The position numbers and the translations under genes were made by a program. From positions 1 to 64,000 of the forward strand of contig QAYY01000026.1 in the NCBI GenBank assembly GCA_003054665.1: a stretch of DNA of 64,000 nt. The letters are read 5' to 3'. Below the pieces are notes generated by a model. That model was not told where the DNA came from. It saw nothing but the letters and a program-made list of their open reading frames with translations, and searched no databases. Source of the stretch: Opitutaceae bacterium EW11 (GTDB taxonomy: Bacteria; Verrucomicrobiota; Verrucomicrobiia; Opitutales; Opitutaceae). Below, in pieces: positions 22,016-41,338 of this stretch (position 1 is the stretch's first letter; every line of letters begins with the position of its first letter).

Positions 22016-22930
22016 TTACAGGCCGGCTTTCTTACGCCGGCGGAGTATTTGAATCAAAGCCAAACCCGCTGCGGCCAGACCCGCTGCGAGCGTGGAAGGC
22101 TCAGGCACCACGGATGCCTGGGCTCCGAGATTCCAGTTCAGCACCAGGTTCGGCTGATCGAGCGGCACCTGGAGTTGAAAACTGAGAAAATCGAAGCCGG
22201 CGGGGTCGGCGGAAAAGCCTCCGGTGGCCGGATCGAAAAGGATGGCCGCGGCCAGCAGATCGATCACCGCCGAATCGTCGATGCCGAGGAGCGGATTGCT
22301 CCAGAAGGTGAGGTGAAGCACCTCCGGCTGCGAACCGTCGGCGACGATCGAATAGTTGAACAGCGTCTCGAGTCCGGGAAGGTTCGTCCCGGCGAAGCCG
22401 GTCAAATTGCCGAAGCTCTCCCAGCCCTCGGCCCCTAGGCTCACGCCGTCGAAGCCGAAGACCAAATCGAGCGCGTCACCCGCAACGTCGTCGAAGCTCC
22501 AGGGATCGAGCACAGCGGCACGCCCCCACGCGGGTGTCTCGGTGTTGGTGGCCATCGCTCCCACGCCAGTTCGCACATCGAGCTTACCGTTGCCTTGCGC
22601 GACGCGAATGCTCCAGCCCGAGACGGCGGCAGCGTCGCCGGCCTCCGCGAAGGCCTGAGACTTGTCGACCAAACCCGGGGCCTTGTTTCCGGCCTTGATG
22701 CCGGGGCAGTTGTAGACGTTGCCAGCCTGAGCCTCGCAGTTCCCCGTATAGGTGCCCGGGGCCGGATTGGCGATGGGAGGCCCGGCCAGTCCGAGGCGCC
22801 CTTGGCTATCTGCGTACGCCTTCTTGGCCGAAAGCGTGCTGGGGAACGTGAGTGCGGCGACGACTGCCGCAAGGAAACACAACGGTGACCGCATTCCGCC
22901 TGTCTTGAACAGTGAATACATCGTTTTCAT
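22016..22930 (-). CDS. PEP-CTERM sorting-signal protein
   Basis: A 304-residue exported protein. An N-terminal signal peptide (LCFLAAVVAALTFPSTLSA) and a C-terminal tail VPEPSTLAAGLAAAGLAL followed by RRRKK show sorting by an exosortase-type enzyme, which cuts after the PEP motif and moves the protein to the surface or exopolysaccharide. The middle (~40-275) is acidic, beta-rich and has no catalytic motif I recognise. Two Cys in CEAQAGNVYNC may form a disulfide. No exosortase or exopolysaccharide genes lie in this window. Confidence 0.8.
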   Translation of the reverse strand: MKTMYSLFKTGGMRSPLCFLAAVVAALTFPSTLSAKKAYADSQGRLGLAGPPIANPAPGTYTGNCEAQAGNVYNCPGIKAGNKAPGLVDKSQAFAEAGDAAAVSGWSIRVAQGNGKLDVRTGVGAMATNTETPAWGRAAVLDPWSFDDVAGDALDLVFGFDGVSLGAEGWESFGNLTGFAGTNLPGLETLFNYSIVADGSQPEVLHLTFWSNPLLGIDDSAVIDLLAAAILFDPATGGFSADPAGFDFLSFQLQVPLDQPNLVLNWNLGAQASVVPEPSTLAAGLAAAGLALIQILRRRKKAGL

Positions 22931-30523: not shown

Positions 30524-31363
30524 ATGTCCAAGACCTTCCATTTCACATCCGGGCTGCCGCGCAGCGGGTCCACGCTGCTCGCCGCCATCCTTCGCCAGAA
30601 CCCGCGAATTCATGCGTCGATGACGAGCCCGGTCGGTTCGCTCTTTTCCTCGCTCCACACGACGATGGGGCAGGCGAACGAGTTCTCGGACTTCATCGAC
30701 GAGCGACAGCGGGAGCGGATGCTCCGCGGGATCTTCGATCTCTATTACCAGGAGCATCCGCAGGAGGTGATCGTGGATACGAACCGCCTCTGGTGCGCGC
30801 GCCTTCCGCTGCTGATGAGGCTCTTTCCAAACGCAAAGGTGCTCTGCACCGTGCGCAATGTCGCCTGGATCATGGACAGCGTGGAAAGGCTGGTCCGGAA
30901 GAACGCCCTCCAGCCCTCGAAACTGTTCAATGGCCCCGCCGAGAGCGACACCGTGTACCACCGGACCGAGGCGCTCGCGGGCCGGGACCGTTTTGTCGGG
31001 TTTTCCTACTACGCCTTGAAGGAGGCGTTCTACAGCCCGGAGGCCCGCAATATCCTGGTGATCGACTACGATCTGCTCACGCAGGCGCCGGCCCAGGTGA
31101 TGCCGCTCGTGTATCAGTTTCTTGGTGAACCGGCGTTCGCGCACGATTTTGAAAATCTCGATTATCAGGAGCCCGGTTTCGATGCGCGGATAGGGTTGAG
31201 CGGCCTGCACGAGGTGAAGCGCAAGGTCGCGTTTCGTCCCCGGCAAACCGTGCTGCCGCCGGATCTGTTCAAGCAATACAGCCAGCTCGATTTCTGGAAA
31301 AACACCGAGGGCAGCGTGGCCAACGTGATCAATGCCAGCACGGCGCCCGCTCCCTCGAAATAA
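30524..31363 (+). CDS. Sulfotransferase-family protein
   Basis: A 279-residue enzyme expected to move sulfate from PAPS to an acceptor. The PAPS-binding P-loop (SGLPRSGSTLLAAIL, residues ~9-23) and the 3'-phosphate region (LCTVRNVAWIMDSVERL, ~107-123) are visible. No signal peptide is present. It ends 17 bases before the start of the giant secreted protein, so the two are probably co-transcribed. The acceptor could be that protein, a glycan or a small molecule; this is inference. Bacterial tyrosylprotein sulfotransferases have this fold. Confidence 0.8.
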   Translation: MSKTFHFTSGLPRSGSTLLAAILRQNPRIHASMTSPVGSLFSSLHTTMGQANEFSDFIDERQRERMLRGIFDLYYQEHPQEVIVDTNRLWCARLPLLMRLFPNAKVLCTVRNVAWIMDSVERLVRKNALQPSKLFNGPAESDTVYHRTEALAGRDRFVGFSYYALKEAFYSPEARNILVIDYDLLTQAPAQVMPLVYQFLGEPAFAHDFENLDYQEPGFDARIGLSGLHEVKRKVAFRPRQTVLPPDLFKQYSQLDFWKNTEGSVANVINASTAPAPSK

Positions 31364-31380: not shown

Positions 31381-34300
31381 GTGCGCTCTCCCTCCGCCTC
31401 GTACCGCCGCCCTTCCTTCACGACCGGCGCCGCCTCCCCGCGCTCCCGCGGCCTCCTGCTTGGTCTTGCGATGTCGTCCGTCCTCTCCGCGCCCAGGGCC
31501 CAGGCCGATGTCCCGGCGTCGCCTTTCCGCGTCGGCGGGCTCGACGAGGGGGAGCTCCGCGAAAACGACCTCGCGCGACCGTCGCTCCCGGCAAAACCCG
31601 CGCCGATGCGCCGTGAGCTCTTCTTCGTCGACGCGGCGGTTGCGGATCCCACGGCCTTCTGGCTGGCGGCACCGGCGGGAGCCACCGTCCTGTGCATCCC
31701 GCGGGGCGTCGATTCGTGGCGCTTCATGGCCGATCAGGCGGAGCACTTCCGCGAGTTGGCCGCGATCCATCTCGTGTCGCACGGTGAACCGGGGGCCATC
31801 GTCCTGAACGGATGTCGCTACACGGAAGGCGATCTCTCGGCGCACGGGGCGGATCTCCGCCGGCTCGGACGCGCCCTGCGGAAGAACGGCGATCTCCTCG
31901 TCTATGGCTGCGACACCGGGGCGGGCCGCGAGGGGCGTCAGCTGGTGAACCAGCTTTCCGAAATCACCGGGGCCGACGTCGGAGCCTCGATGAATCCGAC
32001 CGGCGGGGCGGCGGGCGCCGACTGGAAGCTCGAGATCGTCCACGGCCAGGTGGAAACCGAGCCGGTTGCCCCGGCGGGTTACCAGCACGTGCTGGCGAAC
32101 TTCTCCGTCAACACCGTCGCGAGCCTTCGTTTGGCCTTGCAGACCGCCGCTTCGAACAACGAGGCGGATACGATCACCTTGACGGGCAACATTGCCGCGA
32201 GCGGGACGCCGGTGGACAGCGGGCCCGACGGCCGGCCGACGCTGGCCGTGATCAACGTTTCCGATGGCCAGGCCGTCACGATCGACGGCGCGGGGTATTC
32301 GCTCGACGCGGGGCACTACGGCCGCGCCGTGTACGTGCCGTCCTCCGCGAACGTCACGATCCAGAACCTCACGATCAAAAACGGATTGCTGTACGGCAAT
32401 GGCGGCAACTCGGGCGATCCGTCGCTTTCGCAGGCGGTGAACGGCGGTTCCGCGCTGGGCGCCGGTATCTATAACCTGGGTACGCTGACGCTTGGCAGCG
32501 TGACGCTCACGGCCAACAAGGCGGCCGGCGGCGGCGGCGGCGGCGGAGTCGCAAACGCCGACGTGGGCGGAGGTGGCGGTGGTGGCGGCGGTTTTTCGGG
32601 CATCGGCGGCGGCAACGGCGGCCAGGCCGGCGGATACACGGGCGGGACCGGCGCTGGAGGCACGGGCGGAAATGGCGGCGGATATGTGCCCAACGCCATG
32701 GGCGGCCGCGGGGGAAGCTCGACCGGTGGCGCAGGAGGGACCAACGCCTCCGGCTACTCGTATGGGAGCGCCGGCGGCACCGCCACCAATGGCAGCATCT
32801 CCATCGGCGGCGGCGGCGGCGGCGACGGATGGAACGCGGTGGGCGGCGCCGGTGGCGGCGCGGCCGGCGGCATCTACAACGGTGTCGGCGGCACGATCAT
32901 GGTGATCGGCACGTCCGTACTCAGCAACAATCTCGGCGCGGGCGGCGGTGGCGGCGGCGGTGGCGGCAACACCAGCAACAATTTCAACGGCGGCAACGGC
33001 GGCCAGGGCGTGGGCGCGGTTTGGAACCGCGGCACGTTCCGCATCACGGCTTCGAATTACTCCGCGATGACCGGCAATGCCGCGGGGAGCGGCGCCGGCG
33101 GCCTGGAAAACAGCAATGCGGTGAGCGGGACGACGCCGGCTTCCGTCTCGGGCATCTACAACGACAGCGGCACGGTCGACACCAACTACACGCCGAATAC
33201 CGCGCCCACGTTCGTCGGGGCGACGACGAGTCTTTCCATCTACCAGAATGCGAGCGCCACGAGTGTTGCCGGGCTCCTGCACGTCAGCGACACCGATTCC
33301 AGCCAGACGGAAATCTGGTCGCAGAGTTCGGCTCCGTCGCACGGCACCCTGACCATCTCCAGCGCCACCGCCTCGTCGGGCAGCAGCGACATCACGCCGG
33401 GCGGCACCATCGCCTACACCCCGACGACCGGCTACTCCGGCTCGGACAGCTTCGTCATCCAGGTGAGCGACGGCACCGCGACCGCCACGCGCACGATTTC
33501 GGTCACGATCACGAATCCGATTTCCCTCAGCACGAGCGGCGGCACGACAAGCTTCACCGAGGGCAACAACACGACCTCCACGCCGGTGGCCGTCGATACC
33601 GGGCTGACCGTGTCCGACGCCAACAGCGCCGTGCTCGCGAGCGCCACGGTTTCGATCAGCGGCGGTTTCCAGAGTGCGCAGGACGTCCTCGCTTTCACGA
33701 ACGACGGTTCGACCATGGGCAACGTCACCGGCAGCTACAACGCGGGGACCGGCGTGCTCACGCTGACGTCTTCCGGCGCCACCGCCACGCTCGCCCAATG
33801 GCAGGCGGCCCTGCGGTCCGTCACGTATTCAAACAGCTCCGACGCGCCGGACACGACCAGCCGCACGATCGGCTTCGCCGTCAACGACGGCAACGTCACG
33901 AGCACCACCGCAACCAAGACCGTCTCCATCACGGCGGTGAACGATTCACCGGTCGTCGGCACGTCCGGCGGCAGCACCTCCTTCCAGGAGGGCAACAACA
34001 TCAGCTCCACGCCCGTGGCGGTGGACGGCGCGCTCACCGTTTCGGACGCCGACAACACCACGCTTTCCTCCGCGAGCGTGGCCATCACGGGCAATTTCCA
34101 AAGCGCCGAGGACATCCTCGCGTTCACGAACGACGGCTCGACGATGGGCAACATCGCCGGCAGCTACAATGCGGGGACCGGCGTGCTCACGCTGACCTCG
34201 TCCGGCGCGACCGCGACGCTCACCCAGTGGCAGGCCGCCCTGCGCTCCGTCACGTATACCAACACTTCGAATACGCCGAACACGAGCACCCGCACGATCG

Positions 34301-37300
34301 GCTTCACCCTCAACGACGGCACCAGCAGCAGCGCGACCTCCGGAAAGACCGTGACGATCGCGGCGGTGGACGATGCGCCGATCGCGACCACCACCGGCGG
34401 GACAACGGCCTTCGTGGAGGGAAACAACGTCACCTCGACGCCCGTGGCCGTCGATGCCGGCATCACCGTGTCGGATACCGACAACACGACGCTGGCCGCG
34501 GCCAGCGTCACCCTCACGGGCAATTTTCAGAGCGGGGAGGACGTCCTGGCGTTCACCAACGACGGTTCGACGATGGGCAACATCACCGGCAGCTACAATG
34601 CGGGCACCGGCGTGCTGACCCTCACCTCCGCGGGCGCGACCGCGACGCTGGCTCAGTGGCAGTCGGCGCTTCGCTCGGTGACCTACACGAATGCCTCGGA
34701 GATGCCGAACACGAGCACGCGCGTGGTCACGTTCCTCGTCAACGATGGCACGGCCAACAGTTCTTCGGTGACGAAAAACGTCTCCGTGGCCGCGACGGAC
34801 GACGCTCCCGTCGTGACGGTTTCCGGTGGCAGCGCCGCTTTCGTCGAAGGCAACAACGTCACCTCGACCGCCGTGGCGGTGGATTCGGGCATCTCCGTCT
34901 CCGATCTCGACAACGCGACCTTGTCGAGCGGGTCGGTGTCGATCTCCGGCAATTTCCAGTCGGCCGAGGATTCGCTCCAGTTCGTCAACGACGGCTCGAC
35001 GATGGGCAACATCACCGGCAGCTACAACGCCGGCACCGGTGTGCTCACGCTGACGTCTTCCGGTGCGACCGCGACCACCGCGCAGTGGCAGTTGGCGCTT
35101 CGCTCGGTCGCCTACACGGACAGCTCGGAGTCGCCGAACACCGCCACGCGCACGATCGGCTTCACCGTCAACGACGGCACCGCGAGCAGCTCGACCGTGA
35201 CGCGCACCGTGACCATCACCGCCACGGACGACGCGCCCACGGATATCGCGCTCTCCGCCAGCTCCGTGAACCAGTCGGGAGGGACCGACGCGCCCGTGGG
35301 CACGCTCAGCTCGACGGACGTCGACAGCGTCTCCTTCACGTACTCGCTCGTCAGCGGCACGGGTTCCACGAACAACGCTTCCTTCAATATCTCCGGATCG
35401 AGCCTCCGCGCCAACGATTCATCGACGCTCGCCGCCGGCGCCTACTCGGTGCGTATTCGCAGCACGGATAGCGGAAGCGCCACGTTCGAAAAGGTGTTTT
35501 CGATCACCGTCGTCGACGACCTTGCGCCCGGCGCGCCTTCGACGCCGGATCTCACGTCGGGAAGCGACTCCGGCTCCTCCAGCACGGATAACGTCACGAA
35601 TGTCACGACCCCGGCCTTCACGGGCACGGCCGAGGCCGGCAGCACGGTGCGGGTTTATTGGGGTGGCACGAATCTGATGGGTGCCACCACGGCCGACGGC
35701 TCGGGCAATTGGTCGGTGACCGCCGGCTCGGCCCTGTCCGCCGGCAGCTATTCGATCACGGCCAAAGCAACCGACACTGCCGGGAACACCGGCAGCGCAT
35801 CCGCCGCGCTTGCCCTCACGATCGATACGAGTGCGCCGGCCGCACCCGCGTTCACGGGCATCACGAACGACACCGGCACCTCGTCGACCGACGGGATCAC
35901 CAGCGATCAGACTCTTGTGTTCCACGGCACCGCCGAGGCCAACAGCACCGTCACCGTGATCCGCGTCGGCAGCGGAACGATCGGGACGACGACGGCCGAC
36001 GGCTCGGGCGTCTGGTCGTTTGATTACACCGGCACCACGCTCGCGTCGGGCGATTACACCTTCCGCGCGACCGCCGCCGATGCGGCGGGCAACACATCCG
36101 CGTCGTCGACTGACTTCTTCGTCACCGTCGACGCGAACCAGCCTTCGCCCGTCACGATCACCGCCGTTTCCACGGATTCGGGGTCCAGCTCGACCGACGG
36201 GATCACCAACGACCAGACGCTCACGCTCAGCGGTACGGCCGAAGCGGCGACGCGCGTGACGGTCACCCGCTCCGGCGTGGGCGCCTTGGGCAGCGTCACG
36301 GCGGACGGCACGGGTCACTGGACCTTCGACTACACCGGAACGGCATTGCCCGAGGGCAGCTATCTCTTCACCGCCACGAGCACGGACACCGCGGGCAACG
36401 TCAGCGCCGTCTCGGCCGACTTCCCCGTCACAATCGACACGACTGCGCCGGCGGCGCCGGCGATCACCGCGATCAGCGACGACACGGGCTCGAGTTCGAC
36501 CGACCACATCACGAGCGACACGACGTTGACGCTCTCCGGCACGGCCGAGGCCAACGCCAAGGTCGAGGTGACCCGGAGCGGTAGTGGCGTTCTGGGGACG
36601 ACGACGGCGGACGGCACGGGGGCCTGGACGTACGACTACACCGGCACGACGCTGGCGACCGGCACCTACATTTTCACCGCGAAGGCGACGGACGCGGCCG
36701 GCAACGTCAGCGTCGCTTCTTCGGATTTCACGGTCCAGGTGCAGGATGCGCCCACGATCACGACGCAGCCTGCCGGCGGGACCTACGTTGCCGGCGGCAC
36801 GATCACGCTGTCCGTCACTGCGGGCGGCACCGGCCCCTTCACATATCAATGGTACCTCGACGGCACGCTGCTCGGCGACGGATCGAACCGAAGCGGCTCG
36901 ACCACGGCCACGCTCACGGAGACCGGGATCGGCACGGTCGGTTTTTCCGGCACCTACACCGTCGTGGTCACGAACCTCGCGGGGTCCGTGACGAGTAGTG
37001 GAGCCGTGGTGACGGTGAACAAGGCGGACCAGACGATCACGTTCCCCGCGATCGCCGACAAACTCACAACCGACGCCCCCTTTGCGCTGAACGCGACGGC
37101 GACGTCCGGCTTCACGGTTTCTTTCCAGGTTCTCAGCGGTCCGGCGACGCTCACGGGCAGCACGGTCACGGTGACCGGCGCCGGCTCCGTGACGATTCGC
37201 GCCAGCCAGGCCGGCGATCTCAACACCAACGCGGCGCCTGCGATCGACCGGAGCTTTGCGGTCAACAAGGCGCTGGCCTCGGTGACGCTCAACGGCTTGT

Positions 37301-39477
37301 CTGCGACGTACGACGGTTCGGCGAAGCAGATCTCCGTCACGACGGCTCCTGCGAATCTCTCGGTCTCCGTCAGCTACGCCGGTTCCTCCACGGCGCCGAC
37401 GAACGCGGGCAGCTACACGGTGGTGGCCACGATCGACGACGCCACCTACGCCGGCTCGGCGAGCGGCACGTTCACTATCGCGAGCGCGGACCAGACGATC
37501 ACGTTTGCCCAGCCCGCCAATGCCAGCGTCGGCACGCCGCTCAGCCTGAGCGCCACCGCGACGTCGGGGCTGCCGGTTTCGTTCACCGTCGTGAGCGGCT
37601 TGGGCAGCATCGTCGGCGGGAATCAGCTTGTTGCCTCCCGTTCCGGTTCGATCACCGTGCGCGCCACCCAGGCGGGCAGCGTCAACTTCAACGCTGCGCC
37701 GGCCGTAGATCGCACCGTCACGGCGATCGCGACGGCGCCGGAAATCACCGCGCAACCGGCGAGCGGCGTGGCCCGGGTGGGGGACAGCTTCACCTTCTCC
37801 GTCACGGCCAGGGGAGACGAACTCGCGTATCAGTGGACCTTCGACGGCAGCCCCATCGCGGGCGCGACCTCGACCAGCCTCACGCTCTCGCCCGTCCAAA
37901 CGAGTCAGCAGGGCAGCTACGCGGTAGTCGTGAGTAACAGTACGGCGAGTGTGACAAGCACGGCGGCGACCCTGACGGTGACCCCGGCGACCGCCCCGGC
38001 GGGCGGCGTCTATTTCGGAACCTTCACCCAAGGCGGCGACTTTGCCGTCTACATCGGCAAGGACGGCGTCGGCTTTTTCGCCGGCTATCTGCCGTCGTGG
38101 ACGACAGGATACTATGCCACCTTCACGCTCGACGCGAACGGCGACTTCACCGCCGCGGTGGACGAGAGCCGCGCCGCCGGCGCTGCGCGGAACACTGCCA
38201 ACGCCCCCGCCGTGGCCGCCGACGCGAAGCAGGACGGGTCCGGACCGGGGACAGGTCCGATCAAGGCCGACTCCGCGACGCGCACGCTGCGCGGGCACGC
38301 CTCGGGCGGCGTCTTCACGGCGTCGATTGACGAGGCGTCGCTGAACTTCTCCGCCGGCGTGCAGTCCCCGGACGGCCCGACGGCCGGCATCGCCGGATTC
38401 TACTCGGCGCGGGCCGAAGGCACGGCGACCGGCGCGAGCTACGCCGTCGCGAATGCCCGCAACGAGGTGTTCGTGCTGACGGTTTCCCCGACCGGCCCGC
38501 TCGGCGCCACGGGGATCGTGGATGCGGCGGGCAGTTTCCAAGTCGCGGCGGCCAGCGCCACCTTCACGGGCGAGCTCATCGAGGCGCCGCGTGAAATCAC
38601 GCTGGACGTCGCTCCCGTCGATGGTGGCGCGGCGCAGCGCTACAGCGGAGTGCGCGTCGACGTCGTCAGCAACAATCGCCTGATCAACCTCTCCTCGCGC
38701 CTGCGAGCGGGGAGCGGAAGCCAGACGTTCATCTCCGGCTTCATCATTCAGGGCGACACGCCGAAGACGGTGCTCATCCGCGGCGTCGGCCCGACTCTCG
38801 CGAAATACGGCGTTCCCGGTGTTCTCGCGCAGCCCCGGCTTCAGCTCTATCGCGGTTCGACCAGGATCGCCGTGGCCGGTCCGTGGGGAGAGCAGGCCAA
38901 CGCGGCGGATATCGTTTCGACCAGCGAGCGCCTCGGCACCTTTGCGTTCGAACCCGGCAGCCAGGACAGCGCGATGCTCCAGTCGCTCGAACCCGGAGCG
39001 TACACCGCGATGGTATCCGGGGCCGAGGGGCAGAGCGGAGTTTCGCTTGTCGAAGTCTACGACGCTTCGTCGGCCGTCGGGCGGCTGATCAACATCTCGA
39101 CCCGGGGTTACGCGGGCCAGGGAAACGACGTGATCATCGCGGGGTTCATCGTCACCGGAAACGTGCCCAAGCGCGTGCTTCTGCGCGTGGTCGGCCCGGG
39201 CCTTGCGGCCTATGGCGTTGACGGCGTCTTGGCCGACCCCGCCCTCAGGCTGTTCGACGCGTCGAGAACGATCATCGCCGAAAACGACGACTGGGATGAA
39301 GGCGACGCCGCCACCGCGACGTCCGCGATGGCGCAGGTCGGAGCCTTTCCGCTCGCCGCGGGCGGAAAGGACGCCGCCCTCGTGATCACCCTTCCGCCCG
39401 GCGCGTACACCGCCCACGGCTACGGAAAGAACAATCTGACCGGAGTCGCGCTGGTCGAAGTCTACGAGCTGCCCTGA
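31381..39477 (+). CDS. Giant secreted DUF4347 repeat protein, 2,698 residues
   Basis: Residues ~1-43 are a signal peptide (start GTG 31381, no strong ribosome-binding site). DUF4347 spans ~79-240 (LFFVDAAV, then HLVSHGEPGAIVLNG, then LLVYGCDTGAG). A beta-helix region with a Gly-rich insert (~380-540) follows to ~605. Next are a cadherin/VCBS-like domain (~609-712), four tandem 143-residue repeats (715-1286), another cadherin-like domain (~1286-1380), four ~102-residue Big-like repeats (~1381-1790), Ig-like and MBG-type domains (~1790-2200), an unrecognised ~225-residue domain, and two similar C-terminal modules (RLINLSSR, then VLIRGVGPTLAKYGV; RLINISTR, then VLLRVVGPGLAAYGV). Looks like a surface or adhesin-type protein. 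It has no PEP tail; the end modules may anchor or export it. Confidence 0.8.
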   Translation: MRSPSASYRRPSFTTGAASPRSRGLLLGLAMSSVLSAPRAQADVPASPFRVGGLDEGELRENDLARPSLPAKPAPMRRELFFVDAAVADPTAFWLAAPAGATVLCIPRGVDSWRFMADQAEHFRELAAIHLVSHGEPGAIVLNGCRYTEGDLSAHGADLRRLGRALRKNGDLLVYGCDTGAGREGRQLVNQLSEITGADVGASMNPTGGAAGADWKLEIVHGQVETEPVAPAGYQHVLANFSVNTVASLRLALQTAASNNEADTITLTGNIAASGTPVDSGPDGRPTLAVINVSDGQAVTIDGAGYSLDAGHYGRAVYVPSSANVTIQNLTIKNGLLYGNGGNSGDPSLSQAVNGGSALGAGIYNLGTLTLGSVTLTANKAAGGGGGGGVANADVGGGGGGGGGFSGIGGGNGGQAGGYTGGTGAGGTGGNGGGYVPNAMGGRGGSSTGGAGGTNASGYSYGSAGGTATNGSISIGGGGGGDGWNAVGGAGGGAAGGIYNGVGGTIMVIGTSVLSNNLGAGGGGGGGGGNTSNNFNGGNGGQGVGAVWNRGTFRITASNYSAMTGNAAGSGAGGLENSNAVSGTTPASVSGIYNDSGTVDTNYTPNTAPTFVGATTSLSIYQNASATSVAGLLHVSDTDSSQTEIWSQSSAPSHGTLTISSATASSGSSDITPGGTIAYTPTTGYSGSDSFVIQVSDGTATATRTISVTITNPISLSTSGGTTSFTEGNNTTSTPVAVDTGLTVSDANSAVLASATVSISGGFQSAQDVLAFTNDGSTMGNVTGSYNAGTGVLTLTSSGATATLAQWQAALRSVTYSNSSDAPDTTSRTIGFAVNDGNVTSTTATKTVSITAVNDSPVVGTSGGSTSFQEGNNISSTPVAVDGALTVSDADNTTLSSASVAITGNFQSAEDILAFTNDGSTMGNIAGSYNAGTGVLTLTSSGATATLTQWQAALRSVTYTNTSNTPNTSTRTIGFTLNDGTSSSATSGKTVTIAAVDDAPIATTTGGTTAFVEGNNVTSTPVAVDAGITVSDTDNTTLAAASVTLTGNFQSGEDVLAFTNDGSTMGNITGSYNAGTGVLTLTSAGATATLAQWQSALRSVTYTNASEMPNTSTRVVTFLVNDGTANSSSVTKNVSVAATDDAPVVTVSGGSAAFVEGNNVTSTAVAVDSGISVSDLDNATLSSGSVSISGNFQSAEDSLQFVNDGSTMGNITGSYNAGTGVLTLTSSGATATTAQWQLALRSVAYTDSSESPNTATRTIGFTVNDGTASSSTVTRTVTITATDDAPTDIALSASSVNQSGGTDAPVGTLSSTDVDSVSFTYSLVSGTGSTNNASFNISGSSLRANDSSTLAAGAYSVRIRSTDSGSATFEKVFSITVVDDLAPGAPSTPDLTSGSDSGSSSTDNVTNVTTPAFTGTAEAGSTVRVYWGGTNLMGATTADGSGNWSVTAGSALSAGSYSITAKATDTAGNTGSASAALALTIDTSAPAAPAFTGITNDTGTSSTDGITSDQTLVFHGTAEANSTVTVIRVGSGTIGTTTADGSGVWSFDYTGTTLASGDYTFRATAADAAGNTSASSTDFFVTVDANQPSPVTITAVSTDSGSSSTDGITNDQTLTLSGTAEAATRVTVTRSGVGALGSVTADGTGHWTFDYTGTALPEGSYLFTATSTDTAGNVSAVSADFPVTIDTTAPAAPAITAISDDTGSSSTDHITSDTTLTLSGTAEANAKVEVTRSGSGVLGTTTADGTGAWTYDYTGTTLATGTYIFTAKATDAAGNVSVASSDFTVQVQDAPTITTQPAGGTYVAGGTITLSVTAGGTGPFTYQWYLDGTLLGDGSNRSGSTTATLTETGIGTVGFSGTYTVVVTNLAGSVTSSGAVVTVNKADQTITFPAIADKLTTDAPFALNATATSGFTVSFQVLSGPATLTGSTVTVTGAGSVTIRASQAGDLNTNAAPAIDRSFAVNKALASVTLNGLSATYDGSAKQISVTTAPANLSVSVSYAGSSTAPTNAGSYTVVATIDDATYAGSASGTFTIASADQTITFAQPANASVGTPLSLSATATSGLPVSFTVVSGLGSIVGGNQLVASRSGSITVRATQAGSVNFNAAPAVDRTVTAIATAPEITAQPASGVARVGDSFTFSVTARGDELAYQWTFDGSPIAGATSTSLTLSPVQTSQQGSYAVVVSNSTASVTSTAATLTVTPATAPAGGVYFGTFTQGGDFAVYIGKDGVGFFAGYLPSWTTGYYATFTLDANGDFTAAVDESRAAGAARNTANAPAVAADAKQDGSGPGTGPIKADSATRTLRGHASGGVFTASIDEASLNFSAGVQSPDGPTAGIAGFYSARAEGTATGASYAVANARNEVFVLTVSPTGPLGATGIVDAAGSFQVAAASATFTGELIEAPREITLDVAPVDGGAAQRYSGVRVDVVSNNRLINLSSRLRAGSGSQTFISGFIIQGDTPKTVLIRGVGPTLAKYGVPGVLAQPRLQLYRGSTRIAVAGPWGEQANAADIVSTSERLGTFAFEPGSQDSAMLQSLEPGAYTAMVSGAEGQSGVSLVEVYDASSAVGRLINISTRGYAGQGNDVIIAGFIVTGNVPKRVLLRVVGPGLAAYGVDGVLADPALRLFDASRTIIAENDDWDEGDAATATSAMAQVGAFPLAAGGKDAALVITLPPGAYTAHGYGKNNLTGVALVEVYELP
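33523..35238 (+). repeat. Four tandem 429-base coding repeats
   Basis: Units begin near 33523, 33952, 34381 and 34810. Each encodes a [ST]F.EGNN opening, a DN.[AT]LSS or AAAS block, FTNDGSTMGN or the variant FVNDGSTMGN, SYNAGTGVLTLTS and a QW..ALRSV.Y closing block. Nucleotide identity is high in the central blocks, which suggests recent amplification or gene conversion. Confidence 0.8.
35521..36750 (+). repeat. Four ~306-base coding repeats (Big-like domains)
   Basis: Units of about 102 residues share SSSTD, GTAEA, TTADG or the variant VTADG, YTGT.L or SAGSAL and TDTAGN, in the style of bacterial Ig-like domains. They immediately follow the 143-residue repeats and a cadherin-like domain. 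Spacing is 306 bases for the last three. Confidence 0.75.
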
Positions 39478-39507: not shown

Positions 39508-40269
39508 TCAGCCCGCGGCGAATCCGCGTTCGCCGCCGGGCCGGGCACGCCGGCGCCACAGAAGCATGAGGAGGAAGCCGATCAGCGCGCCGCCGATGTG
39601 GGCGAAATGCGCGACGCCTCCTCCGAAGATCGGAAAGCCGGTCACGCCGGAGAGCAGGTCGAGCGCGAGGAGAAGCGGGATGAAGTATTTCGCCGCGATC
39701 GGAACCGGCAGGAAGATCATCATGAGCTTGGCGTTTGGATACAGCAGGCCGAACGCGACCAAGGTGCCGTAAATCGCCCCCGACGCGCCGATCATCGGGG
39801 TCGCGTAGATGTGGTAGAGGTCGAGCAGCGCGGACCGCAGCGCCGGCTCGGAGGGGGCCAGGGTCTCGCCGGTGGCGAGGAGCGTGTCGATCGTCGATTG
39901 AGGAATTCCCGCCGCGATCAGGCGCTGGTGCAGGACGCCGAACTGATAGGCATTGATGCCCACCTGCACGAAACCGGCTCCGAGGCCGCACAGCAGATAA
40001 AAGACCAGGAACCGCCGCGTGCCCCACTGGCGTTCGAGAGGCACGCCGAACGACACCAGCGCGAGCATGTTGAACGCGATGTGCCCTAAGCCGTCGTGGA
40101 GGAAGAGATAGGTGAGCGGCTGCCAGACCGCGAAGGCCGGATTGGCGGGATACCAGAACGCCCCTTTCGTGATGAACAGTTCCTGCCCGTTGGGGAGCAC
40201 GCTGCCCGCGAGAAACGCGAGCGCGGCGAGGATGACGATGCCAAGAACGGCCGGTGTGAAGCGTCCCAT
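39508..40269 (-). CDS. Rhomboid-family intramembrane serine protease
   Basis: A 253-residue membrane protease with about six hydrophobic segments. The catalytic Ser is in GASGAIYG, the catalytic His in AHFAHIGGALIG, and the family LFLHDGLGHIAFNMLAL loop-helix is present. A longer than usual loop (~125-160) separates helices 3 and 4. Start ATG 40269. The gene follows the dehydrogenase at 40280 by 10 bases in the same direction, so both are likely one operon. Substrate unknown; it converges on the giant secreted gene with 30 bases between. Confidence 0.85.
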   Translation of the reverse strand: MGRFTPAVLGIVILAALAFLAGSVLPNGQELFITKGAFWYPANPAFAVWQPLTYLFLHDGLGHIAFNMLALVSFGVPLERQWGTRRFLVFYLLCGLGAGFVQVGINAYQFGVLHQRLIAAGIPQSTIDTLLATGETLAPSEPALRSALLDLYHIYATPMIGASGAIYGTLVAFGLLYPNAKLMMIFLPVPIAAKYFIPLLLALDLLSGVTGFPIFGGGVAHFAHIGGALIGFLLMLLWRRRARPGGERGFAAG

Positions 40270-40279
40270 GGGAGTGTGG

Positions 40280-41338
40280 TCAGGGACGCCGGGTGTCGGA
40301 GAGCGACCAGGCGCCCACCGGAATGCTGCGCAGTTTCGTGACGGTCTCGAGCGCGGCACGCTGGCAGCGTTGAGGCGGAAGGCCGGCGAGGATGGCCTCC
40401 AGATCGTCCGCCACGAGCTGCCCGATCAGCGGCTGGATTTCGGGGATGCTGCCCGCGCGATGGGCCTGGATCAGCGTATTCGGAGTCTTGCGACCGGGTT
40501 CGTTCGCCGGGACCGGCTCCGTGGGCCACACGTCGATCCCGGCGCGAATGTGGCCGCTCTCGGCCGCGGCGAGCAGTTCCGGAAAATTCACGAGCGCGGC
40601 CCGGCTCGCGAGGATGACAACGCTTCCTTTCTGCATGAGCGCGAAGTGGCGCTGGCCGATTTTCCCGGTGTTTTCGCTCGTGTTCGCCGCGAGCAGGAAC
40701 ACGACGCGCGACCGGGAGAAACACTCGTCGAGCGTCACCGGCGTCACGTCGAGGTCCCTCAGCACCGCCGGCTGCACCCAGGGATCGTGCACGACGATGT
40801 CCCGGGTGAACGGACGGAGCAGCGGCAGCAGGGCGCGCCCGAGATTGCCGAAGCCGACCAGCCCGAGGGTCTTCCCGTGGAGGAGAAACGAATCGTGATT
40901 GTCGCCCTTCCATTCCTTGCCGGCGCGGAGGGAGGCGTCGGCTTCGTGTATCCGCCTGGCGAGCGAGATCGCCATGCCGAGGACCATTTCCGCCACGGGC
41001 CGCGCGTACACGGGAGCGGTGGACAGGACCGGAATCCCCCGGCGGTGGCACTCGGCGTAGTCGACGTTGGGGAGGAAGTTGCTCTCGACGTTGAAGACGG
41101 CCCGCAGATGCGGCGCCCGGTCGAGGCGCGCTTTGTCGAGCGCGGATTGCCCGATCAGCGCGACGGTCTGCGGGAGGAATTTCTCGATGTGTTCGTCGGA
41201 AGCCGGCGAACCGTCGTGCCAGATGACGCGGCCGAGGCGTTCCAGGCGGCGTTTCGTCGGCTCGTCGAAAATGCGTTCGATTTTGCGAGGATGCGGATCG
41301 AGGAGAATCACGCCCTCGTTGGCGGGAAGGGAAGACAT
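40280..41338 (-). CDS. D-isomer 2-hydroxyacid dehydrogenase family protein
   Basis: A 352-residue NAD(P)-dependent dehydrogenase. The dinucleotide-binding motif LGLVGFGNLGRALLPLLRPF and the later RPVAEMVLGMAISLARR segment are typical. The usual catalytic Arg appears in ILASRAALVNFPELLAA, the Glu in GIDVWPTEPVPANEP and the His in LIQAHRAGSIPE. It should act on hydroxypyruvate, glyoxylate or a phosphoglycerate-like substrate; the specific one is not decided. Starts at ATG 41338 (MSSLPANEG). Upstream frame extension is shadow. Confidence 0.85.
   Translation of the reverse strand: MSSLPANEGVILLDPHPRKIERIFDEPTKRRLERLGRVIWHDGSPASDEHIEKFLPQTVALIGQSALDKARLDRAPHLRAVFNVESNFLPNVDYAECHRRGIPVLSTAPVYARPVAEMVLGMAISLARRIHEADASLRAGKEWKGDNHDSFLLHGKTLGLVGFGNLGRALLPLLRPFTRDIVVHDPWVQPAVLRDLDVTPVTLDECFSRSRVVFLLAANTSENTGKIGQRHFALMQKGSVVILASRAALVNFPELLAAAESGHIRAGIDVWPTEPVPANEPGRKTPNTLIQAHRAGSIPEIQPLIGQLVADDLEAILAGLPPQRCQRAALETVTKLRSIPVGAWSLSDTRRP

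Follow-up and report, generated by a model that had tools for sequence, protein, structure and literature searches.

The window analysed here, a stretch of 64,000 nucleotides from Opitutaceae bacterium EW11, contains a gene for a giant repeat protein that ends in two similar modules, which raises the question of what such modules do at the end of this protein and of others. Opitutaceae are rich in secreted polysaccharide-degrading enzymes, the location of which is mostly unknown. A C-terminal unit that about 30 exported proteins share, and that 60% of the species sampled in this family possess, would give access to the group's surface proteome.

Gene and domain architecture

Positions 31381-39477 (+) form one intact ORF of 2,698 aa with a GTG start and without an internal stop. 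The codon-position GC of this ORF is 0.57/0.60/0.87, and its sense strand is therefore coding. Two further long ORFs, on the antisense strand (877 and 1332 aa), mirror this GC pattern and were rejected as codon shadows of the gene. The initial annotation had described a single gene for a multi-domain protein of 2,698 residues, and the intact ORF and the coding GC pattern bear this out. The first half of the protein consists of a signal-peptide-like start, DUF4347, a Gly-rich region, a cadherin-like domain, four 143-aa repeats and four Big_13/Ca_tandemer domains. An Ig domain, MBG_3, a second Ig domain, a 229-residue segment and two C-terminal modules of about 130 residues each follow in the second half. 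The features are:

30524..31363, +: sulfotransferase gene (Sulfotransfer_3, by Pfam), 17 bp upstream of the giant gene
31381..39477, +: gene for the giant multi-domain protein (ORF and codon-position GC)
31381..31506, +: signal-peptide-like N-terminus, residues 1-42 (rule-based scan; cleavage site placed by eye between RSRGLLLGLAMSSVLSAPRAQA and D)
31618..32091, +: DUF4347, residues 80-237 (Pfam PF14252, 7e-38; alignment of 12 homologues)
32341..33180, +: Gly-rich region, about residues 321-600 (composition)
33196..33513, +: cadherin-like domain (Cadherin_3/Big_9), about residues 606-711 (Pfam)
33529..35244, +: four 143-residue repeats, about residues 717-1288, with the anchor F-x-EGNN (repeat spacing)
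35521..36741, +: four Big_13/Ca_tandemer Ig-like domains, about residues 1381-1787 (Pfam and NCBIfam)
37276..37488, +: MBG_3, residues 1966-2036 (Pfam)
37738..37980, +: second Ig domain (Ig_3/I-set), residues 2120-2200 (Pfam)
37990..38676, +: 229-residue segment from the last Ig domain to module A (no match to any family; found once in the genome)
38677..39063, +: C-terminal module A, predicted PPC fold, residues 2433-2561 (genome search, model, Foldseek)
39082..39474, +: C-terminal module B, predicted PPC fold, residues 2568-2698, up to the stop codon (genome search, model, Foldseek)

The DUF4347, the Gly-rich part and the several kinds of repeat that had been read from the sequence at the outset are all present; that the Gly-rich part is a beta-helix, as the initial annotation had it, is a possibility. 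The PF14252 match reaches 130 bits against a cut-off of 24.6, and the Gly content rises up to 52% at residues 380-480. The anchors of the 143-aa repeats lie at residues 725, 868, 1011 and 1154, a spacing of exactly 143 aa, and the four Big_13 units (Pfam 7e-71; also matched four times by the NCBIfam Ca_tandemer model) are spaced at 101-102 aa. Pfam finds Ig_3 twice.

DUF4347 may be a clan-CD-like, possibly self-processing cysteine peptidase domain. This is a reasonable lead because His134 (31780-31782) and Cys177 (31909-31911) are invariant in the alignment of the 12 homologues, three of which weakly match Peptidase_C80 (best 0.0082). Sequence matches of DUF4347 to designed TIM barrels in the PDB were set aside as summed chance matches of repeats.

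A family of C-terminal modules

Modules A and B, the twin C-terminal modules with RLIN motifs of the initial annotation, are 48% identical to each other and carry the motifs RLINLS...GVGPTLA and RLINIS...VVGPGLA. When module B was used as the query against the whole source genome (6.4 Mb, 45 contigs), 57 modules were matched with E-values from 1.6e-82 to 5e-10, a recurrence far beyond chance. They are spread over 31 ORFs, 26 of which have an exact tandem pair and five a single module. Their placement is strict: in 30 of the 31 ORFs only 1-6 residues separate the last module from the stop, the exception having 107 further residues, and in other genomes the module lies at most 12 residues from the ORF end in 32 of the 34 ORFs with a closed 3' end. 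We found no paper describing the module in the open-access literature.

The modules on other passengers are 35-56% identical to module B. Conserved in the aligned modules are N-x-S-x-R in the first strand, L-I-x-G-F, R-x-x-G-P-x-L, D-P and N-D-D-W, as well as P-G-x-Y-T and a final G-V-A-L-x-E-V-Y. The idea that A and B are two separate ancient subfamilies holds only partly. Their labels cluster above shuffles (for A, 13 changes where the shuffles average 19.2, with none of 500 shuffles as low), yet three pairs are well-supported sisters and therefore point to later duplications. In the tails of the module ORFs, which end in the last beta strand, there is no transmembrane helix, basic cluster or sorting motif. 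The best 19-residue hydropathy is 1.33 in the giant protein and at most 1.72 across the set of module proteins, and the LPXTG motif was not found in the giant protein.

The proteins that carry the modules are unrelated to one another and include both enzymes and non-enzymes. Among the other 30 module ORFs, Pfam finds the enzyme families GH5, GH10 and GH43, a subtilase with a PQQ propeller, a reprolysin-type M12B and a beta-lactamase-type domain. The rest comprise CAP, NHL and DUF5122 propellers, Vps10/BNR repeats, a ricin-type lectin and Ig-only proteins. In about half of these 30 ORFs an Ig domain lies directly N-terminal of the modules. By a rule-based scan with permissive rules, 29 of the 31 module ORFs have a signal-peptide-like start. 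The same scan suggests that the giant protein is exported, and the signal-peptide-like segment at its start speaks against a cytosolic location, which the initial annotation had named as evidence against its own proposal.

Predicted fold of the module

No Pfam family covers the module, with PF04151 (PPC) matched by only one of the 57 modules (E 0.036), and among the sequences of solved structures no chain matches it. The module is thus new to Pfam and weakly touched by one NCBIfam model, NF038127 (DVUA0089, FDP_fam), which 33 of the 57 modules match with a best E-value of 3e-7. At E 1e-4 this model has no match in ten whole module-bearing proteins. The NF038127 family is therefore probably a distant sequence relative of the module, although the matches are weak.

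AlphaFold models built with a paralogue alignment reached pLDDT 94.1 and pTM 0.88 for the tandem, and pLDDT 96.8 and pTM 0.90 for the single module. In Foldseek, the best matches of these models are PPC domains (5sv5, 1nqj, 3jqw, 5iku). For the single module, the PPC domain of the B. anthracis collagenase, 5sv5, is matched at 1.2e-4 (probability 1.00, TM-score 0.68 by target, 16% identity), and domains of ColG and ColH are also matched. For the tandem, the collagen-binding pair of ColG, 5iku, comes first at 1.9e-8, with a low TM-score of 0.28 that would fit two domains oriented differently from those of the module pair. As PPC domains lead the structural matches and PF04151 does not cover the module by sequence, it is predicted to be a PPC-fold jelly roll outside PF04151 by sequence, and not a known catalytic domain, the other outcome that would have spoken against the initial annotation.

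The module resembles the PPC domains of PF04151, as in ColG/ColH, 5sv5 and FibA, in its jelly-roll fold, its C-terminal position on secreted proteins and its frequent occurrence in tandem. It differs from them in the low identity, in its many non-protease passengers per genome and in its strict position at the protein end. Judged from the models, we appear to be dealing with a family not previously described, which has the PPC fold and is deployed like a sorting signal.

Taxonomic distribution

The module is concentrated in Opitutaceae and rare elsewhere. In a sample of the phylum it was found in 15 of 289 genomes, of which 12 belong to the Opitutaceae and two to other families of the same class, while one is a weak match elsewhere. 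Within this family, it occurs in 72 of 120 genomes, corresponding to 34 of 49 genera. Carriers in the family often have at least 35 copies, the highest number that was scored, some only 1-5, and other genomes of the family none. The contrast between carriers, often with 30 or more copies, and family members with none would make the module a clear target for phylogenetic profiling in search of a possible partner machine.

A search of named records with a single-module query, which reached close relatives only, returned mostly Opitutaceae and Opitutae, together with Pelagicoccus and metagenome-assembled genomes (MAGs) labelled Myxococcales and Pseudomonadales. The MAG labelled Pseudomonadales NORP299 has 12 modules in six ORFs (loci L058, L076, L079, L081 and L084), which may reflect either transfer outside the phylum or mis-binned contigs.

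The initial annotation took the end modules for a verrucomicrobial sorting or anchoring unit. The unit itself is supported: the module is a real family that closes about 31 diverse proteins of the source genome, most of them with a signal-peptide-like start, and that is concentrated in Opitutaceae. Sorting or anchoring would be its putative role; neither a partner machine nor a candidate for a receptor or an enzyme was found.

Role of the C-terminal pair

We suggest, with a probability of about one half, that the pair formed by the last 266 residues is a lineage-specific C-terminal targeting or retention unit common to unrelated exported proteins. The reasons for this reading are the extreme C-terminal position of the pair, the unrelated exported passengers, its being abundant or absent depending on the genome, and the conservation of the modules. 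The giant protein would be exported by Sec via its signal peptide, and the tandem pair at its C-terminus would then dock to a common surface component. We infer the docking partner, the retention and the adhesion. The passenger in this case, a rod of Ig-like and cadherin-like repeats with DUF4347 and a Gly-rich part, would be suited to adhesion. The giant protein could thus be a modular surface or matrix protein, for which an adhesin function is plausible from the domain content. A published parallel for retention is Myxococcus FibA, which has two PPC domains at its C-terminus; these build up in the extracellular matrix and the spore coat (PMC3236237).

Some observations speak against retention. 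The copy number varies strongly, down to a handful in some genomes, which is less typical of a house-keeping sorting system, and a homologue in the module-rich genome G099 is without the module. Moreover, PPC domains elsewhere bind substrate or get removed. A more specific proposal, which we put forward tentatively as a possibility, is that the tandem pair is the recognition signal of an as yet undescribed Opitutaceae sorting or surface-attachment system that has a dedicated receptor or transpeptidase, exists beside exosortase and serves some 30 or more proteins per genome.

It is also conceivable, though rather doubtful, that the tandem module binds an external polymer (a plant, algal or microbial polysaccharide or protein) and so brings enzymes to a common food particle instead of to the cell. 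The nearest solved folds are collagen-binding PPC domains, which also stand in tandem (5iku), the PPC domains of clostridial collagenases bind collagen, and several passengers are the plant-polymer hydrolases GH5, GH10 and GH43. However, many passengers degrade no polymer, such as the propellers, the Ig-only proteins and the giant protein itself. In addition, 62 of 65 closed ORFs have the module at their extreme C-terminus, whereas binding modules commonly occupy any part of a protein, be it one of the ends or the middle.

Considerably less probable is a PPC-type accessory prodomain that helps the passenger to fold, to stay stable or to be secreted, or else inhibits it, and that is lost outside the cell. 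The fold match to PPC would agree with this. Secreted proteases commonly lose their PPC domains; the PPC domain of Vibrio Lap is inhibitory and PPC domains can be removed (PMC10709122). But many passengers are non-proteases or pure repeat proteins without anything to inhibit, and the modules are well conserved across passengers.

Comparison with known sorting and secretion systems

A role of the module as substrate tag for one of the known C-terminal sorting systems, be it PEP-CTERM/exosortase or type IX secretion (T9SS), is largely refuted and very improbable, even though the extreme C-terminal placement and the many copies per genome are common features. The source genome does contain five exosortase-like genes, as well as about 33 PEP-CTERM ORFs that pass the cut-off, but by coordinates no PEP-CTERM ORF coincides with a module ORF, and the module end has no motif, hydrophobic helix or basic tail. 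Of the 30 genomes tested, 29 have exosortase, among them all 13 that lack modules; the genome G316, by contrast, has no exosortase match but at least 35 modules. From this occurrence pattern and the anatomy of the tails it follows that the module does not behave as a PEP-CTERM/exosortase tag, and we rejected this dependence.

The genome in which PEP-CTERM was first encountered is likewise verrucomicrobial, that of V. spinosum (PMC1569441). Like the module, PEP-CTERM is a single C-terminal homology region shared by many exported proteins, but the module is a folded pair of 266 residues with no exosortase link, in contrast to the short motif, helix and basic tail of PEP-CTERM. One PEP-CTERM ORF lies at 22031-22108 (-) in the same window, so that two distinct C-terminal units are found less than 20 kb apart.

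The sorting domains of T9SS (TIGR04183) are, like the module, folded C-terminal beta-sandwiches on diverse exported proteins. Type IX secretion was nevertheless rejected, as the T9SS type A sorting model touches only one of the 57 modules (0.039) and Peptidase_C25 of the PorU type is absent from the source genome and from 27 of the 30 genomes tested. SprA had no match in the 30 genomes in a search without a positive control.

The giant protein also differs from type I secreted giant adhesins. It has a signal-peptide-like start and, in place of RTX repeats towards the C-terminus, a single chance GGxGxD at residue 477, and no type I secretion genes adjoin its gene, the immediate neighbours being the sulfotransferase gene and a rhomboid gene. 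Similar in architecture are giant repeat proteins with DUF4347 in Proteobacteria and Cyanobacteria, in which, as here, DUF4347 on the N-terminal side is followed by long Ig-like or repeat regions. Two such giants in Azospirillum adjoin TolC/HlyD-type export genes; the giant protein differs from them in its signal-peptide-like start and the predicted PPC-fold pair at its C-terminus.

Neighbouring genes and homologous loci

The sulfotransferase (78-100% identical) occurs in only 4 of 120 genomes of the family, from four genera, each time with a DUF4347 gene directly downstream of it. Its conservation (78-84%) exceeds that of the giant protein (40-56%), and possibly the enzyme sulfates this surface protein. 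Loci with sulfotransferase homologues are L072, L099/L103 and L100/L105. On the other side, a rhomboid protease gene at 39508-40359 (-) stands tail to tail with the giant gene, 31 bp apart; no rhomboid match was found near the G099 homologue. This homologue shares 51% identity with the giant protein along its first 373 residues and has no modules in a genome with at least 18 of them, and therefore the N-terminal half can manage without the module.

In the genome G338, a broken second sulfotransferase is followed by a remnant of the giant gene (L104:4279-6520), namely a tandem-module end that is 52% identical to that of the window. Judged from the sequence, this is probably a decayed copy of the sulfotransferase/giant-gene locus, and the remnant shows that sulfotransferase and tandem pair have been neighbours outside the source genome too. 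Behind the broken sulfotransferase, a transposase-like antisense frame was read by eye.
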